Of a DNA stretch of 64,000 nucleotides, positions 22,456 to 32,154 are shown piece by piece. Source of the stretch: Drouetiella hepatica Uher 2000/2452 (GTDB lineage: Bacteria > Cyanobacteriota > Cyanobacteriia > Elainellales > Elainellaceae); the NCBI GenBank assembly GCA_019359505.1, contig JAHHHD010000001.1, forward strand, positions 248,001 through 312,000, in the 5' to 3' direction. Position 1 is the first letter of the stretch; the number at the start of each line of letters is the position of its first letter. Under the pieces are notes generated by a model. It was not told the origin of the DNA. It saw only the letters and a list, made by a program, of their open reading frames with translations, and did no database searches. Position numbers and translations under genes: made by a program.

Positions 22456-22658
22456 AAGACAATAAGGAACATTAAGAACATCTAAGTAGTGTTAAGAGAA
22501 TATACGTCTGAGGGGATAGATTTTCGCCATTATTGTGACCTTGTTTGACAATCCTACGGAAAATATAAAAATGAAGTCGTGTTTTTGGTACATTGATTAA
22601 TCTCAACACTCAGAATCTATAGCTCAGCGGTTTTCTGTCATGAAATCAATAGAAAGCT

Positions 22659-22672: not shown

Positions 22673-22735
22673 GTAGAGCTTCTCCAGTAACCTCAGCACG
22701 GTATTAAAACAGGATTTGATCAACAGGAGATAACA

Positions 22736-25300
22736 ATGTCATATACTGCAACACCTACTTCCGCAGCAATGGCGAAGACGGGTGCAGATGTTCAATTGAT
22801 TGCGCCCTTATCGGGTCGTTTGGTGAAAATCGAAAATGTGCCCGATCCGGTCTTTGCAGAAAAGATGGTGGGCGATGGCATATCGATCGATCCCATCAGC
22901 CAAACGTTAGTTGCGCCCTGCGACGGGGAGATCATTCAACTTCATCCCTCCCACCACGCGGTCACGATCAAATCCCCTGAAGGGATAGAAGTGCTGATGC
23001 ACATTGGGTTGGATACGGTAACGCTCCGAGGCGAAGGATTTGTGCCTCACGTAAAAGTGGGCGATCGCGTCCGGTCAGGCGATGCGCTTATTGACTTTAA
23101 TGCCGACTATGTAGCAACTCACGCCCGGAGCTTGCTCACACAAATTGTGATCACCAATGGCGAAAAAATAGCTCAGTTTTTGCCCCAGTCGGGAGACGTG
23201 ATTGCCGGACAAGATTTGTCTTTGACGCTGGTGCTGGCAGGAAATACGCAGGCGACGACCGCTCAGAGTGGCAAGCTTGTGACTTCTGAAGCGATCGCCA
23301 TTTCCAACCCCACAGGACTACATGCCCGACCTGCTGCGGTTTTGGTGAATTTAGCCAAAAAATATAAGTCCGAGATTCGCCTCAACTCTGGCGATAAATC
23401 GGTCAACGCCCGCAGCGTCGTGGCGATTATGGGTCTGGAAGTCGGCAATGGCGATCGCGTTCACCTTACCGCCAAAGGGGAAGATGCCGAAGCCGCGATC
23501 GCCGAGCTGAGTCAGGCTTTACAGTCGGGTCTGGGAGAAGAAGGTTTGAAGCCAATCGCGGCTTCGGCAAGTGGGGCAATGCTGGATGCCGCACCCCGGA
23601 TGCGATCGGATAATCCTAATCTAATTTTGGGCGTCTCGGCTTCTCCGGGTGTAGCGGTCGGCAATATTTTCCGGATTACCCACGAAGAAATCGCGGTTGC
23701 CGAAACGGCGCAAAGCCCTAACGAAGAGCGCCGCAAGCTAGAAAAAGCGGTAACTCAGGCAAAGCTAGAAGTTGAGGCATTACGCTCTAAGGTTCACGGT
23801 CAGGCAGATGCGGGCAAAGCCGCCATTTTTGCCGCCCATCAGGAGCTACTTGAAGACCCTGAGCTGGTTGATGGTGCCACTAGCGCGATCGATCAAGGCA
23901 AAAGTGCCGCCTTTGCCTGGAAGCAATCCTACACATCTCAGGCAACGACCCTCTCTCAGCTTAAAAATCAGCTTCTCGCCGCACGGGCTAATGACCTGCG
24001 GGATGTAGGCGATCGCGTTTTACGGATACTGACAGGCGCGGCTATTGCCTCAACTGACTATCCAGCCAACTCAATTCTGGTGGCAGAAGACCTCACCCCC
24101 TCCGATACTGCCACAATGGATCGCGGCAAGGTCTTGGGTTTCTGCACCGTCGGCGGTGGAGCCACCTCCCATGTGTCAATCTTGGCGCGGGCAATGGATA
24201 TCCCGGCGATCGCGGGTGCCGAACAGCGCATTCTTGATCTGGCAAACGGTACTCCCGTGATTCTTGACGGCGGCAAGGGCACCCTGCGGCTCAATCCTGA
24301 CCCTGCCGAAATGGAGCAGGTACGGCAACGACAAGTCCGACTAAAGGCAAGACGGCAGACTGAGCTAGCGGCAGCCGAGCAACCCGCCATCACTACAGAC
24401 GGGCACCGGATGGAAATTGTTGCCAACATTGGAAACAAAGCCGATGCCGAAAAAGCCATGACCCTCGGCACTGAGGGCGTAGGGCTACTGCGATCGGAAT
24501 TCATCTTCCTCGATCGGGCAACTGCCCCGACTGAGGACGAGCAAACCGAGATTTACTCTGGCGTGGCGAAAGTGTTAGGCGATCGTCCGTTGATCATCCG
24601 CACCCTCGACATTGGCGGCGACAAACCCCTCGCGTACCTGCCTATGCCCCACGAAGAAAATCCTTTCTTGGGCGAACGGGGAATTCGCATTGGTCTCGAT
24701 CGTCCCGAAATTTTCCGGACTCAGATTCGTGCCATCCTGAAAGCTTCTCAGTTCGGCAACGTCAAAGTCATGTTCCCCATGATTGCCACGCTAGATGAAA
24801 TCCGGCTGGCAAAATCCATGATGGAGGAAGAACGCCAGAAGCTAGGTGTTTCCCCCATCTCAGTCGGCATCATGGTAGAAATTCCAGCCACAGCTGTCAT
24901 TGCTGACCAGTTTGCTAAAGAAGTAGATTTCTTCTCAGTCGGCACCAATGATCTGACCCAATACACCCTAGCCATGGATCGCGGACATCCTAAGCTCGCT
25001 CCCTTCTGCGATGGCTTAAATCCGGCAGTCTTGAAGCTGATCGGCATGGCGGCAGCGGCATCCAACCAGCAGGGCAAATGGACAGGCGTTTGCGGCGGCA
25101 TTGCCAGCGATCCACAGGCTATCCCAATTCTGATTGGTTTAGGCGTAAAGGAACTCAGCGTCAGCGTTCCTACAATTCCTAGCGTCAAAGCCCAAGTGCG
25201 CCAGCTGAACTTGCAGCAGTGCCAGGAGCTTGCTCAGAAGGCGATCGCCTGTGACACGGCAGCAGAAGTCAGAGCGCTGTATTCGCCTCAAGAAGACTAA
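22736..25300 (+). CDS. PTS fusion protein IIA(Glc)-HPr-Enzyme I
   Basis: An 854-residue fusion of three soluble phosphotransferase proteins. Residues 20-160 are IIA of the glucose type, with the phosphorylated His89 in VLMHIGLDTV. Residues 187-270 are HPr, with His196 in GLHARPAA and NARSVVAIMGLEV. Residues 295-854 are Enzyme I: His479 in GGGATSHVSILARAMDI, the PEP-binding GTEGVGLLRSEFIFLDR, LIIRTLDIGGDK and SVGTNDLTQYTLAMDR. Together they carry phosphate from PEP to IIA. CAGGAG precedes the ATG. The 45-base gap to ptsG shows one operon. Such fusions are known in proteobacteria (as with nag and fru systems). PTS transport is rare in cyanobacteria. HIP1 sites within the gene suggest long residence. 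Confidence 0.93.
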   Translation: MSYTATPTSAAMAKTGADVQLIAPLSGRLVKIENVPDPVFAEKMVGDGISIDPISQTLVAPCDGEIIQLHPSHHAVTIKSPEGIEVLMHIGLDTVTLRGEGFVPHVKVGDRVRSGDALIDFNADYVATHARSLLTQIVITNGEKIAQFLPQSGDVIAGQDLSLTLVLAGNTQATTAQSGKLVTSEAIAISNPTGLHARPAAVLVNLAKKYKSEIRLNSGDKSVNARSVVAIMGLEVGNGDRVHLTAKGEDAEAAIAELSQALQSGLGEEGLKPIAASASGAMLDAAPRMRSDNPNLILGVSASPGVAVGNIFRITHEEIAVAETAQSPNEERRKLEKAVTQAKLEVEALRSKVHGQADAGKAAIFAAHQELLEDPELVDGATSAIDQGKSAAFAWKQSYTSQATTLSQLKNQLLAARANDLRDVGDRVLRILTGAAIASTDYPANSILVAEDLTPSDTATMDRGKVLGFCTVGGGATSHVSILARAMDIPAIAGAEQRILDLANGTPVILDGGKGTLRLNPDPAEMEQVRQRQVRLKARRQTELAAAEQPAITTDGHRMEIVANIGNKADAEKAMTLGTEGVGLLRSEFIFLDRATAPTEDEQTEIYSGVAKVLGDRPLIIRTLDIGGDKPLAYLPMPHEENPFLGERGIRIGLDRPEIFRTQIRAILKASQFGNVKVMFPMIATLDEIRLAKSMMEEERQKLGVSPISVGIMVEIPATAVIADQFAKEVDFFSVGTNDLTQYTLAMDRGHPKLAPFCDGLNPAVLKLIGMAAAASNQQGKWTGVCGGIASDPQAIPILIGLGVKELSVSVPTIPSVKAQVRQLNLQQCQELAQKAIACDTAAEVRALYSPQED

Positions 25301-25345
25301 TTTTAATCCTCCGTCTATTGGCTATTCGTACATTAGGTAAAAGCG

Positions 25346-27196
25346 ATGTGGAAAAAAGCGTTTTCGTTATTGCAGCAGATGGGAAAGTCCCTGATGCTGC
25401 CAGTTTCGGTTTTGCCGATCGCTGGGCTTCTCTTAGGTTTAGGCAGCGCCAAGTTTAGTAAGCCCGAAACTTTCTTCTGGATGCCAGAATTTTTGGCGCA
25501 GATCATGAAGGTTTCGGGAGATGCCATTTTCGCCAACCTGCCGCTGATTTTTGCGGTATCTGTGGCGATCGGTTTCACGGGTAATGATGGCGTTTCGGCG
25601 CTAGCGGCAACTGTAGGCTTTGCGGTGTTCGTGGCGGCTTTGGGTGCAGCTTCGGTGACGCTTTGGGGGGTCGATCCCAAGACTCTCGATACCGTTATGG
25701 GCATTCCCTCGCTGAATACGGGCGTGTTTGGCGGTCTGATCATGGGCTGCATTGCGGCGTATTTGTTCAACAGGTATTTTAGGATTCAACTGCCGCAATA
25801 TCTGGGCTTCTTTGCGGGCAAGCGGTTTGTGCCGATTATTACTTCTTTGGCAGCGATCGCCTTTGCCATTCTCATGAGTGTCATCTGGCCTCCCATCGGA
25901 GCCGCCATCAAAACTGCGGCAAATACGGCGGCGGCAGGTGGCAACGTTGCCTTTACTGCTGCGCTTTATGGCGTAGTGGAGCGATCGCTCCTCCCCTTCG
26001 GACTGCACCATATCTGGAACGTGCCCTTCTTCTTCGAAATCGGCTCCTTTACGGATGCGGCGGGTAAAGTTGTTCGTGGCGATATTACGCGCTTCTTTGC
26101 TGGAGACAAGACTGCCGGAATTTTGGGCGGGGCTTACTGGTTCAAGATGTTTGGGCTGCCTGCGGCGGCGATCGCCATGTGGCACTCGGCATACCCCAAA
26201 AACCGTAAAGTGACGGGCGGCTTGATGCTGTCGGCAGCCTTCACCTCGTTTTTGACGGGCATTACCGAGCCAATCGAGTTCTCCTTCATGTTTGTGGCAC
26301 CGGGTCTGTATGCCGTTCATGCGCTGATGGCGGGTTTCTGCGACTGGCTGTTCCAGATTATGGGCGGCAAGATGGGCTTTACCTTCTCTCACGGCTTCAT
26401 CGACTTTGCCTTGTTCAACACGCTAGGAACCAAGTCCTGGCTGATCATTGCCTTTGGCCCGCTGTTTGCGGCGCTCTATTATTTCGTCTTCCGATTTGCC
26501 ATCAAGCACTTCAACCTGAAAACGCCGGGTCGAGACGATGAAATTGAAGATGCGGCGGTCTTTAGCGGCGACAGCGCCGGATCGGACATGGCGAGAGAGC
26601 TGGTGAGAGCCTTTGGCGGTCGCAAGAACATCGCAACGCTGGATGCCTGCATTACCCGTCTGCGGATCACCGTCAACGATATGCAAAAGGTTAACAAGCC
26701 CAGGCTAAAGGCGCTAGGCGCATCGGGCGTACTTGAAGTAGGCAATAACGCGCAGGCTATCTTTGGCCCACGATCGGAAAACCTGAAAACCGACATGATC
26801 GAATACCTGAAAGGGGCAGGAGCAGAGGCCGATGAAGGCTATGTGTCCCCGGCAGTAGCGACGGCAGTGGCTTCGGCAGCTGCTAATGGCGGCAGTCTGG
26901 ATACCGCTAATCTAGATACTGCTCCGATCGCTTCCCAGCGCGATCCAGATGCAGCCCGACGGATGCAAGACGCGATCGCGGCCTTGGGAGGCTCTGCCAA
27001 TATTCTGAATGTCCAGCCCGCTGCCCTAACTCGTTTGCGCGTAGAAGTTGCTGATGAGAGTCAGGTGGACGATGCAGCGCTCCGAGCTAGCGGCGTAGAG
27101 GGCGTGATGCATCTACCCGACCATTTGCTGCACCTGCTGGTGGGCTTAAATGCCGATCAATATGCAGAGGAAATGAACAGACAACTGGTGAAATAG
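25346..27196 (+). CDS. ptsG: PTS glucose permease IICB with an extra IIB-like domain
   Basis: A 616-residue membrane permease that imports and phosphorylates glucose. The IIC part (1-395) closely follows proteobacterial PtsG: SLMLPVSVLPIAGLLLGLGS, GFTGNDGVSALAA, QLPQYLGFFAGKRFVPI, LLPFGLHHIWNVPF and GITEPIEFSFMFVAP (305-319). The IIB part (about 410-490) has the phosphocysteine Cys435 in LDACITRLR. E. coli PtsG ends at 477 residues. Here a linker (490-530) and a second IIB-like domain (531-612) follow, in which the Cys position holds Ala560 (QPAALTRLR). N-acetylglucosamine specificity is less likely given the close match to PtsG. A stable hairpin terminator follows directly. Confidence 0.92.
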   Translation: MWKKAFSLLQQMGKSLMLPVSVLPIAGLLLGLGSAKFSKPETFFWMPEFLAQIMKVSGDAIFANLPLIFAVSVAIGFTGNDGVSALAATVGFAVFVAALGAASVTLWGVDPKTLDTVMGIPSLNTGVFGGLIMGCIAAYLFNRYFRIQLPQYLGFFAGKRFVPIITSLAAIAFAILMSVIWPPIGAAIKTAANTAAAGGNVAFTAALYGVVERSLLPFGLHHIWNVPFFFEIGSFTDAAGKVVRGDITRFFAGDKTAGILGGAYWFKMFGLPAAAIAMWHSAYPKNRKVTGGLMLSAAFTSFLTGITEPIEFSFMFVAPGLYAVHALMAGFCDWLFQIMGGKMGFTFSHGFIDFALFNTLGTKSWLIIAFGPLFAALYYFVFRFAIKHFNLKTPGRDDEIEDAAVFSGDSAGSDMARELVRAFGGRKNIATLDACITRLRITVNDMQKVNKPRLKALGASGVLEVGNNAQAIFGPRSENLKTDMIEYLKGAGAEADEGYVSPAVATAVASAAANGGSLDTANLDTAPIASQRDPDAARRMQDAIAALGGSANILNVQPAALTRLRVEVADESQVDDAALRASGVEGVMHLPDHLLHLLVGLNADQYAEEMNRQLVK

Positions 27197-27197
27197 T

Positions 27198-27243
27198 CAA
27201 AACTACAGCCCTTTGGGCAATGATCCAAGGGGCTGTAGTTTTG
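27198..27243. terminator. Terminator behind ptsG
   Basis: CAAAACTACAGCCCTTTGG pairs with CCAAGGGGCTGTAGTTTTG (one wobble) around an eight-base loop. It separates ptsG from the convergent histidine kinase gene. Confidence 0.75.
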
Positions 27244-27256
27244 GAACTGCTGAGGC

Positions 27257-28690
27257 TCACGATGCCAATTCCGTCAGGGTACCCTGCTGGTTTCTTGGAA
27301 TTTCAATCCAAAACTCTGTGCCCAACCCCGGTTCCGATACACACCGAAGAGTTCCCTTATGTTTTTCAGCAATAATTTGATAGCTAATAGACAATCCTAG
27401 TCCTGTGCCTTTACCGACTGGCTTGGTTGTGAAGAACGGATCAAATAATTTTGCCCTCACGGTTTCTGTGATTCCAGGTCCATTGTCTGCAATTCGGATG
27501 GCGACACTGTTTATTCCTTGAACCTCTGTTGTAATCGTAATTCTGCTGGGATGGCGGCGAGTTTCCATAGCCGATCGCTGGCTGTTGTAGTCATGCAGCG
27601 CATCGATCGCATTGCTCAGAAGATTCATAAAGACCTGATTGAGTTGCCCCGCAAAGCACTCTACTAAAGGCAAATCTCCATACTGTTTAATCACCTCAAT
27701 CGCAGGATGCTCAGCTTTTGCCTTCAGCCGACTCTGCAAAATTAGCAGGGTACTGTCAATCCCCTCGTGAATATTAACTGCTTTCATCTCGGACTCATCC
27801 AGACGAGAAAAATTGCGCAGTGAGAGCACAATCTGACGAATCCGATCTGCCCCTAATTTCATTGAAGAAATGATTTTTGGTAGATCTTCAGTTAAAAAAG
27901 CTAGATCGATGGTTTCACTATGCTTCTCAATTTCTAGGCATGGATTGGGATAGAACTGGCGGTAGAGATGCAAAAGCTCCAGCAAATCCTGCGTGTACTC
28001 GTTGGCGTGCTTTAAATTGCCATGTATAAAGTTCACAGGATTGTTAATCTCGTGAGCAATTCCAGCCACTAACTGCCCAAGACTCGACATCTTCTCAGTC
28101 TGGATCAATTGAGTCTGGGTTCGCTGTAGTTCCCCAAGCGCTTGCTTCAGCTTTGTCGCCTGAGCTTCAGCAATTTCAGCTAAATTCTCTTTAATTTGCA
28201 AGGCGCTTCGTAATTGTGCCTGCTGCTGAGTTAGCTCTTCTGTTAACTTTTTTGTGTCAGCTAGAGCTACGTTCTTGGCTTGCAGCAAAAAAAGAAAGTC
28301 AACAACCGGATCGTGGGTTGCAAAATCCTTTAGCTTAATCCCCAAAGGAGTCAGGCTAGCCGTGTCAGTGACCCAAGGCGATCCCAGGAAGAAAATTATA
28401 TCCTGGTCTTCTACACACATCATCTGCCCCTTGATTTGCATCCCGTTATGGAGAGACTCCAGGATGAAGAGGGAGCGAGATTGTTTCTTAATGGCATCAA
28501 ACTCAAATTCAATGGTTGGACGATTGATTTGAAAATGCTCCTCGATCTGGCTGCCCACCAACGCTGTAGGAACAACGCGCCGCAGAACTTCCCCAGCCTG
28601 TAGAACTTCGCGATCGCGGTTGAGCACCAAATGAAACGGAAAGGCATTGGAAAATAGCTGCGGCGGCAGACAGAGAGAAGGAGAACCCAT
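27257..28690 (-). CDS. H-NOX-associated (HNOBA) histidine kinase
   Basis: A 477-residue kinase. Residues about 8-145 form an HNOBA domain ([47 protein letters not shown]), a PAS-like partner of H-NOX sensors. A coiled coil (150-215) leads to the HisKA box with the phosphorylated His in [14 protein letters not shown]. HATPase motifs follow: N box in [37 protein letters not shown]. The gene ends the six-gene run, seven bases after the H-NOX gene. No receiver domain or response regulator is in the window, so the output is unknown. In Nostoc, H-NOX next to an HNOBA kinase is established. Confidence 0.9.
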
Positions 28691-28696
28691 GATTAT

Positions 28697-29248
28697 TCAG
28701 GTTTGCTTATACTTGATTGAAAATTCATCGTGCTCAGCACCTTCCTCTCGACTTTGAGTTTGAGTCACTTCAACCTCTGTATCAAAGCGAGTGCCCAGCC
28801 CTTTAACCAACCCCACCACCATTGGGGCTAGTCCTTCTCGGCTAGAGTGATAGTGAAGGTTTAGAGCCTCTCCAGTTTGCTGCGTACAGTCAAAGGAGGG
28901 GGGGTTAAGCTGAGGAAAAATAACCCCAACACGAGCATGGAGATTGTCCAGGTTTTCTAAAAACTCTGGCAGATTATCGCCACTCATTTCCATCATTTCG
29001 CCGTAGCCTTCCTGAGCCGTGTACGTCACCCAAAACTCGCCAAAAGCCTGCATGATTTCTGAAGCAGATAAGCCTAAAACTTCGCTGGCAGCTTTGACTA
29101 GCTTGTGGGTTACATCATCGGGATACCCTTCCATACTGATAAAGGTATCCATCTCTAAGTTTGCTTTTTGCTTAATTTCCTTCCAGGTATTTGCACCAAA
29201 ATGACTGCATACCATGTCTTCGATTGCTTTGTTCACAAGTCCGTACAT
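28697..29248 (-). CDS. hnoX: H-NOX heme nitric-oxide sensor
   Basis: A 183-residue heme domain protein. The start at 29248 ([13 protein letters not shown]) has GGAGG upstream; the open frame to 29356 is not needed. The proximal heme ligand is His104 in LDNLHARVG. The YxSxR motif that holds the heme propionates is Tyr133-Ser135-Arg137. Trp73 occupies the distal region in EFWVTY and no distal Tyr is seen, as in NO-selective cyanobacterial H-NOX proteins, not O2-binding ones. It sits between two HNOBA proteins on the same strand, its likely partners. Confidence 0.93.
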
Positions 29249-29352
29249 ATAATCCTCCGGCTGATCTAACAGTTGGCTTTTATAATTAGTCGCTTTTTTA
29301 GCCGCTTTTACAGTTAATCTAAAATTCCCCGTTTTCTCGCCATAGCAACAAT

Positions 29353-32154
29353 TCAAGCTATTAATTCCGCTGTTAGCAGTTTCTCAGTCATCTTGCTATC
29401 CAGAGGAACAGAGAAAAAATACCCCTGTCCGCTTTCGCATTGCAGTTCTCTCAGTCGTGCTAGTTGCGGGGCAGTTTCAATTCCTTCAGCAACGGCATCC
29501 ATCCCTAAACTTTGAGCAAGCAACACAACGGTACGAATGATCTCTAGCTTTTCAGCATCTGTATCCACACTCTGAATAAATGAGCGATCAATCTTCAATG
29601 TATTCACAGGAAAGCGGCTGAGATAACTCAAGGATGAGTAGCCAGTACCGAAATCATCCATTGACAACTGAATCCCCAGCGCTTGAAGTTCCAATAAAGT
29701 ACTTGTTGTAAACTCTACATTTTCCATCAGAATGCTTTCGGTGATTTCCAAGTTCAATCGGTGAGCATCCATTCCAGTTTCTTGCAGAATTTGTTGAATT
29801 TGGACAATGAAATTCGTCTGAGAAAATTGCTTACCAGAGATATTCACACTGATGGCTAAATTATGAGCAACCGGAAATTCCTGTTTCCAATGTTGCATTT
29901 GGCGACAAGCCTCCTGCAACACCCACCCTCCCAAGGGAATAATCAATCCAGTCTCTTCAGCTACAGAAATAAACTCTCCAGGAAAAATAAGACCTCGTTC
30001 TGGGTGAACCCAGCGAATTAGCGCCTCGAAACCGATAATTTTTTGGCTTTCCAACGCCACAATTGGCTGGTAGTGTAATTGAAACTCCTGGCGCTCGATC
30101 GCTCGGCGCAGATCGGTTTCTAACTGTAGCAGTGCTACTGCCCGCACATGCATTGCGGTATCAAAGATCTGATACTGGGCTTTACCCATGCTTTTAGCGT
30201 GATACATGGCAGTATCCGCATCGCGCAGTAATTCTTGAGGATGTTCATAGCCTGTTGTATTGAGAGCAATGCCAATACTGGTACTGGCGAAGATCTCATT
30301 CCTACCTAGGTGAAACGGCAGCATTAGCTCTTCTTGCAATCGCTCAGCTACTTGAATGACGTAGGAACTATCTTGGATATCTTCAAGCAAAATGGCAAAC
30401 TCGTCACCCCCCAAGCGAGCGATCAGATCGCCACGACGCAGACAGTTCTCTAATCTGCGGGAGATGGCGATCAGGAGTTGGTCACCGATAATATGACCAA
30501 GACTATCGTTGATGACTTTGAAGCGATCGAGATCCAGAAAAAGAACGGCGAATAAACAGCCTTCTTGCCGTTTTGTTAGGGCGATCGCCTGCCCCAGTCG
30601 CTCCATAAATAAAGCCCGGTTAGCTAAACCCGTTAGCCCGTCATGTAAGGCATCATGAATGAGCTGCTCTTCAACCCGTTTGCGCTCAGAAATATCACGA
30701 CAAACAATTACGCCTCCTCTGAGCACCTCGTTTTTATCTTTGAGCGGTCTTCCGGTCGCTGTAACCCAAACACCGTCGGGTGTTTGAGCATGGCACACAA
30801 ACATTTCGACATCATTAACCTTCTCGCCACGAATAGAGCGCTCTAAGGGTAAATCTTCAACGTTAAACGGAGTCTGGCGATCGGGGAGATAGAAATTTAG
30901 CGTTTGTGAGCATTTAGTTGCAACTGAGTGATTTTCAACTGAGTGATTTTCAACTAAATGTTTGGCGGTCGAGCCAAACATCCGTTCCGCTGCTGGATTA
31001 AAGACCAGGAAATTCCTGTTCTCATCCGCAACGATGACCGCATCACCCATGCTGTCCAAAATTGATTTCAGACTTTCTGAAATTTCTGTTTGCTTCAGCA
31101 GTGCTGCTTCGATTTGCTTTCGCTGGTTAAACTGCCCTACCTTGATGCCAATATCAACCATCATTTCCAGCAAGTTATCGTCGGGCTGACAGGACTTATG
31201 GCTAAAAAACTCAAGCACCCCGATGACTTCAGTGCCATTTTGGATCGGTAGCCCAAACCCACCCTGGAGCTTTGCCTCGATCGCATGGAGTCTACAGGGC
31301 GAATTGGAATCTGTGACGATATTTTCTATCCAAATCGGTTCACGCTCATGCCAAACACAGCCCGCTAGACCTATTCCCATGGGCAGAGTCAGCATCCGAG
31401 TCAACAGCTCAAATTCTTTGAAATGTTCCGGAACCGCAGTCCAAACTCCTTGACACTTCAAGACATTGGCTGATGGATCAACTAGCCACAGCACACCCAC
31501 CTGCCAATCTAATGCAGTACCGATCGCCGCCAAAATTTTGATTGTTGCCTCACCAAAGGTTGCCGATTCCGCCAGGATGTGGGTTACAGCATAGAGGGTA
31601 GACAGCCTTTGATTGGTCTGACGGAGTTCTGATCGTTGCCGAGTCAATTCATCCGTCAGTTTCTTAGCGTCAGATAAAGCCGTGTTTTGAGCTTGAAGTA
31701 AAAAGAGAAAATCAACAACTGGATCATGAATTGCAAAATCGCTAAGGGTGATTCTGTAGGATTTTAATGAAGCAATGTCCGTTACCCAAGGAGAGCATAA
31801 GAAAAAGAGAATATCTGACTGTTCGACATACACCATCTGTCCCTTGAGCTTCATCCCATTTTGCAGCGATTCCAACAGGAACAGCGATCGCGTCCGCTTG
31901 CGGATCTGATCAAACTCTATGCCGATATTAGGGCGATCGACACGGAAATGCTGCTCAAGCTGGCTTCCTGTAGATAACTCAGGATAGATTTTCTGTAAAA
32001 CGTCTCCAACCTGAATAATCTCGCGATTACGATTGAAGACAAGATGAAATGGAAAAACCTCCGTGAATAGATCGGGGATTAACTTAAAGCAGGATAACGA
32101 TTGAACGCTTTTAGGTTGGGATGAACTAGATGGCGGTATGATTGCACTTAACAT
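29353..32154 (-). CDS. HNOBA-GAF-PAS-GGDEF-EAL c-di-GMP protein
   Basis: A 933-residue signalling protein. Order: HNOBA (about 28-155), a coiled coil, GAF (about 185-335), PAS with its C-terminal PAC segment (about 355-480), GGDEF (about 490-650) with intact [14 protein letters not shown], and EAL (about 665-925) with [24 protein letters not shown] and [13 protein letters not shown]. Both cyclase and phosphodiesterase motifs are complete, so it may make or degrade c-di-GMP depending on signal. The HNOBA part shares [20 protein letters not shown] and the [18 protein letters not shown] helix with the kinase downstream. In the PAS linker the sequence VENHS is tandemly duplicated. It starts 54 bases behind the diiron-oxygenase gene. 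Confidence 0.93.

Follow-up and report, generated by a model that had tools for sequence, protein, structure and literature searches.

Cyanobacteria have been stated to lack the phosphotransferase system (PTS) (PMC2405797) or to possess it only rarely (PMC2900214), and a cyanobacterial sugar PTS is unmentioned in PMC10515406. No paper on a cyanobacterial ptsG was found in the open-access literature searched. In Caballeronia and Paraburkholderia, a glucose PTS is encoded by two genes, an IIA(Glc)-HPr-Enzyme I (EI) fusion followed by ptsG, and the PtsG carries a second IIB domain without the cysteine; the same gene pair was also found in Azospirillum. The NagF-NagE systems for GlcNAc, described in Ralstonia eutropha (PMC11362209) and present in Novosphingobium and Sphingomonas, likewise combine a fused IIA(Glc)-HPr-EI with a glucose-class IICB. 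In the latter two alphaproteobacteria, NagE extends into an additional C-terminal domain past IIB, and nagA and a SIS-domain gene adjoin. In E. coli, IIA, HPr, and EI are separate proteins, and PtsG (8qsr, 9hnp) has no second IIB. Fructose systems of the FruB-FruK-FruA type pair a fused transfer protein with a permease containing an extra IIB, which in E. coli FruA is said to function in contacts between proteins and not in the transfer of phosphate, and to occur in the fructose enzyme alone (PMC6872149); full FruA activity requires both IIBs (PMC2405797).

The window analyzed here, a 64,000-nucleotide stretch of the Drouetiella hepatica Uher 2000/2452 genome, contains a two-gene locus that resembles these systems to different degrees. 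It shares with Caballeronia and Paraburkholderia the two genes, their order, the fusion, and the second, Cys-less IIB (IIB'), but those systems belong to a proteobacterial clade with identities of 52-53% (fusion) and about 55% (PtsG). It shares with the alphaproteobacterial NagE a domain beyond IIB, but differs from all NagF-NagE systems in substrate family. The IIC-IIB region is 54.6% identical to that of E. coli PtsG and has all of its motifs. The fructose permeases differ in the family (PTS_IIB) and the N-terminal position of their IIBs, and both IIB domains of the host's own FruA keep the CPTGIAHT motif. This FruA belongs to a complete second PTS for fructose on another contig of the host (C47; L012:6146-11598), composed of fruB (IIA(Fru)-HPr-EI), fruK, and fruA. 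Lastly, other cyanobacteria (family f6) have a dihydroxyacetone PTS, DhaKLM, that also includes a fused IIA-HPr-EI, but of the IIA(Man)/DhaM type.

Gene content and substrate class

The first gene (22736-25300, + strand; identified as an ORF and by Pfam and NCBIfam) encodes an IIA(Glc)-HPr-EI multiphosphoryl transfer protein of 854 amino acids, which places all soluble PTS steps in a single chain. The second (25346-27196, +; same evidence) encodes a PtsG glucose permease of 616 amino acids with the order IIC-IIB-IIB'. Both ORFs in the window list coincide exactly with those of an earlier note made from the DNA letters, and a gap of 45 nt separates the end of the fused gene from the start of ptsG on their common strand. 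An AGGAG ribosome-binding site (22725-22729, +) precedes the ATG of the fused gene, and the CAGGAG is kept in two relatives. The search for upstream operators returned a single plausible sigma-70-like site and no other: a promoter-like TTGACA-16-AAAAAT (22545-22572, +) with 10 of 12 matches, which is a consensus match only and is partly conserved in the closest relative, L049. An intrinsic terminator (27197-27245, +; -33.8 kcal/mol, z -7.85), formed by a hairpin and a T-run directly 3' of ptsG, probably serves both directions, with a convergent gene ending at 27257.

The 5' neighbor of the operon is a solitary alpha/beta hydrolase gene, while its convergent 3' neighbors encode two signalling proteins and the haem-NO-binding protein with which they are associated. 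This cluster (27257-32154, -) comprises an H-NOX protein flanked by an HNOBA histidine kinase and an HNOBA-GAF-PAS-GGDEF-EAL protein, and represents gas sensing with two outputs.

The fused protein begins with an IIA(Glc) domain at residues 20-144 (22793-23167, +; Pfam PTS_EIIA_1), containing His74 and His89. An HPr domain follows at residues 185-263 (23288-23524, +; Pfam PTS-HPr), with the phospho-site His196 within GLHARP. The EI domain occupies residues 297-848 (23624-25279, +; Pfam and NCBIfam), with the phospho-site His479 within GGATSHVSILAR and with Cys786. Its Pfam matches, PEP-utilisers_N, PEP-utilizers, and PEP-utilizers_C, spanned residues 299-825, and the protein scored 571.7 bits against the EI equivalog TIGR01417 of NCBIfam (cut-off 341.7). 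In an alignment of 47 fused homologues, His196 and His479 were histidine in every sequence, His74 and His89 were histidine in 45 (gaps in the other two), and Cys786 was cysteine in 46 (a gap in the remainder). Hence, the reading of IIA, HPr, and EI in one protein with all phospho-His motifs, made in the earlier note, was confirmed: the EI has a PEP-binding domain and its phospho-His, the HPr has its phospho-His, and the IIA(Glc) has both active-site histidines. Between the window and L049, dN/dS was 0.08 for the fused protein. The fused gene was frame-broken in three MAG contigs (L050, L053, and L054), two of them low-coverage by title, which may reflect either decay or assembly errors.

PtsG combines, in one permease, an IIC transport domain at about residues 1-395 (25346-26530, +; Pfam PTS_EIIC at residues 13-330, and predicted structure) with a IIB domain at about residues 412-492 (26579-26821, +; Pfam PTS_EIIB, alignment, and predicted structure). 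The phospho-site of the latter, Cys435 within DACITRLR, was cysteine in all 41 aligned rows, and dN/dS was 0.03 for IIC and for IIB (window against L049). The AlphaFold model of PtsG had an overall pTM of 0.52, and the IIC part was therefore read no further than its fold class. Among the NCBIfam models, PtsG exceeded the cut-offs of the glucose IIBC equivalog TIGR02002 (681.9 against 591.8) and of NF008301 PtsG (664.6 against 647) and fell below that of the NagE (GlcNAc) equivalog TIGR01998 (497.7 against 553.2), so that the permease is assigned by family cut-offs to the glucose class and not to the GlcNAc class. The close match to the proteobacterial glucose permease that had been noted before thus holds at the family level, but the cyanobacterial copies form a clade of their own, at about 54-56% identity to the proteobacterial ones.

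Glucose-class IIC proteins can be promiscuous in substrate use, and the main substrate might be a different sugar, whether a hexose or an amino sugar (GlcNAc, glucosamine, or mannose), with glucose being secondary. Relatives in the same family lend this some weight, as three of them encode nagE with nagB and nagA (L168:1340-7314, L169:2952-6769, and L170:6766-10336), and in one (L168; CCP2/G393) nagB-nagA-nagE lie inside the PTS operon, between the fused gene and ptsG. However, the NagE of these relatives is a distinct gene that passes the NagE equivalog, the host genome survey identified one permease of the glucose class, and no nag genes adjoin the host operon among the window ORFs. Together with the equivalog scores of PtsG, these observations make a main substrate other than glucose improbable.

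Other routes for glucose were also surveyed. GlcP, which imports glucose in Synechocystis and Nostoc, belongs to the sugar-porter (SP) family. No SP-family (GlcP-type) porter was found in the host genome at E 1e-60, while matches at this threshold occurred in 5 of 36 genomes of the host's family and in 8 of 14 control genomes. Glucokinase was present in all 36 genomes of the family.

Distribution and ancestry of the operon

The locus lies on a 486-kb contig (C5) of a genome that is 99.8% complete and 0.4% contaminated. The HIP1 motif (GCGATCGC) occurs 86 times in the window against 1.6 expected. Inside the two genes there are 11 sites (2.5/kb), about twofold the density outside (1.26/kb). The two-gene layout, being that of Caballeronia and Paraburkholderia, could be taken as a sign of recent transfer or of proteobacterial contamination of the assembly. 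Both were rejected as extremely unlikely on the grounds of contig size, genome quality, and intragenic HIP1 sites, and because the nearest relatives are cyanobacterial (89-92% and 77-79%) and the operon occurs in named strains such as Leptolyngbya PCC 7375 and Planktothrix PCC 9631. In agreement with what the earlier note had argued from the flanking genes and the internal HIP1 sites, the contig is not contamination, and the HIP1 density, the low dN/dS, and the close relatives with the same operon support a long residence in a cyanobacterial chromosome.

When 84,980 species genomes were scanned under protein guidance, at least 40 other loci were identified, all cyanobacterial by title; the scan patterns were derived from the window protein and so favor close relatives. 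The carriers included Leptolyngbya, Nodosilinea, Planktothrix, Elainella, Pegethrix, Stenomitos, Pantanalinema, Chroococcus, Aphanothece, and other genera. The fusion was found 5' of ptsG in 34 of the 40 contigs, and five of the remaining six were cut at ptsG. In the last, a MAG contig (L020:1-2961), 2.9 kb of DNA precede ptsG and contain no fused IIA-HPr-EI gene, possibly through an assembly break or a rearrangement.

Among 386 evenly sampled cyanobacterial genomes, an intact glucose operon was present in five, FruA in two, and an EI in 30. Within the host's own family, ptsG was found in 19 of 36 genomes and a fused EI of one or another related type in 26 of 36. The general lack of sugar PTSs in cyanobacteria, which the earlier note had stated, stands as phylum-wide rarity but not as absence. 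The same counts, together with the single clade described below, are at odds with the operon as an isolated curiosity, and they go part of the way towards many cyanobacteria carrying it by descent, which was to count against the note. The glucose PTS is surprising for the phylum and a recurrent trait of some cyanobacterial lineages.

The cyanobacterial PtsG sequences formed one clade with 100/100 support in the permease tree, as did the cyanobacterial glucose-type EIs in the EI tree (100/100). The latter clade was nested within the proteobacterial IIA(Glc) fusions, beside Burkholderiaceae plus Bartonella (90/81). In contrast, the cyanobacterial FruB clade grouped with the FruB of Azospirillum (99/98), and the DhaM type was separate: of the 30 sampled genomes with an EI, 24 rows, 23 of them from family f6, constituted a clade of their own. 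Two f6-type proteins checked were IIA(Man)-HPr-EI by Pfam, and dhaK-dhaL adjoined in the one locus to which family models were applied (L164:6478-10789). The PTS reported for Nostoc azollae (PMC2900214) may likewise be of the DhaM type instead of importing a sugar. For the cyanobacterial EIs as a whole, one common origin was rejected (p-AU 3e-15), as was a joint clade of the glucose and fructose types; the trees indicate three separate origins.

For PtsG, the group placed next to the cyanobacterial clade in the tree had a support of 40/15, and alternatives were not rejected. Since the trees were computed under LG+G4 with no mixture model and with plasmid-borne copies as the only outgroups, the donor is named no closer than proteobacterium-like, and transfer into cyanobacteria is the direction suggested by the nesting. 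The operon reads as an old acquisition from such a donor, once or a few times, followed mostly by inheritance with frequent losses. Alternatively, its patchiness could have arisen by repeated transfers among cyanobacteria, a history that we regard as possible though not as the expected one. The carriers include distant lineages (Planktothrix, Chroococcus, Aphanothece, Nodosilinea, and Leptolyngbya) while most of the phylum is without the operon, and flanking genes are not conserved past the closest relative: when flanks were compared, the one common element was an upstream sugar-epimerase gene shared with L049 alone. Against this, the rows from the host's family group in the EI tree and the Planktothrix copies form one clade. 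Additionally, a Planktothrix-like genome (G255; L016:8338-8780), which shares its genus code with two intact carriers, retains scattered fragments of the fused protein and PtsG as a relic of the operon.

The second IIB domain of PtsG

PtsG ends in the IIB' domain, at about residues 533-616 (26942-27193, +), which was recognized by a second Pfam PTS_EIIB match, the alignment, and the predicted structure. Its Ala560, within PAALTRLR, takes the place of the cysteine. This position was alanine in all 40 cyanobacterial rows reaching IIB', and the T-R-x-R that follows was kept. The AlphaFold model shows the helix and strand order of IIB with a pLDDT of about 90, and dN/dS was 0.06 (window against L049). 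A Foldseek search with the whole PtsG model matched IIB structures, including that of the Mlc/EIIB complex (3bp8). Like the extra domain described for E. coli FruA, IIB' is a duplicate with the IIB fold that lacks the phospho-site, and, judged from its residues, it cannot carry phosphate at the usual site.

A Cys-less IIB' was also found in the PtsG of Caballeronia, Paraburkholderia, and Azospirillum, and was absent from gammaproteobacterial PtsG, which has a separate IIA, and from the PtsG of Bacillus and Deinococcus, which carry their own C-terminal IIA. Given this distribution and the role of the extra IIB of E. coli FruA in protein contacts, the best inference is docking: IIB' most likely helps PtsG contact a regulator or the large fused protein with which it works. 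A strict pairing of IIB' with a fused partner fitted every PtsG sampled and the proteobacterial NagE seen, but was broken by two cyanobacterial NagE proteins. That of G388 has a single IIB and that of G400 has two, both with Cys (as read from the loci, the L170 NagE has one IIB and the L169 NagE two Cys-bearing ones). In both genomes the only glucose-type IIA found was that within the fused protein, so IIB' is not obligatory for the use of a fused donor. A broader proposal is offered tentatively, as one that may well not hold: in glucose-class permeases with fused partners, IIB' could be a conserved, unphosphorylatable docking or sensing module, and these cyanobacteria would have a PEP-coupled system for glucose and GlcNAc uptake and signalling. 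If true, such a module would be an independent counterpart of the additional IIB in the fructose permease.

Proposed function and meaning

The mechanism is that of an ordinary PTS; the interest lies in its host and in the extra domain. PEP would phosphorylate His479 of EI, and the phosphate would pass to His196 of HPr and His89 of IIA, either inside one fused chain or from one copy to another. From His89 it would move to Cys435 of the first IIB in PtsG and then to the glucose carried by IIC, so that glucose would arrive inside as glucose 6-phosphate. Transport activity and substrate are here predicted from sequence. They are argued for by the domain and equivalog matches, the conserved phospho-acceptors, the low dN/dS, the tandem layout with its terminator, and the lack of an SP porter in the host, while the proposed history is argued for by the gene pair in proteobacteria and in 34 of 40 contigs, the clade support of 100/100, the nesting of EI among proteobacterial fusions, and the HIP1 density.

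It has also been considered that the operon is kept chiefly for carbon signalling rather than feeding, with a regulator reading IIB' or the phosphorylation state of IIA. IIA(Glc) and IIB(Glc) do signal in enteric bacteria (PMC8100219 for IIA; the Mlc/EIIB complex for IIB), and IIB' is conserved despite being unphosphorylatable at the usual site. However, no Mlc-like or other transcription regulator was found among the genes adjoining the operon, and strong purifying selection extends across the full transport chain, which leaves signalling as a main role with little likelihood. The preferred reading, to which we assign a probability of roughly 0.85, is a functional PEP:glucose PTS that was anciently acquired from a proteobacterium-like donor, then inherited and often lost. 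A complete two-gene glucose PTS in a bona fide cyanobacterial chromosome, the central claim of the earlier note, was borne out by its domains, glucose equivalogs, phospho-residues, purifying selection, and contig.

Of all parts of the system, the Cys-less IIB' and the extension towards GlcNAc have been described least. A report of a cyanobacterial "PTS" should be read with caution, as the system concerned may be of the dihydroxyacetone kinase type instead of one that imports sugar. Defined lineages, some of them available as strains, carry a complete glucose PTS, many relatives with a fructose-type fusion in addition and a few with a GlcNAc branch, and this distribution predicts which filamentous cyanobacteria should import glucose at the expense of PEP.
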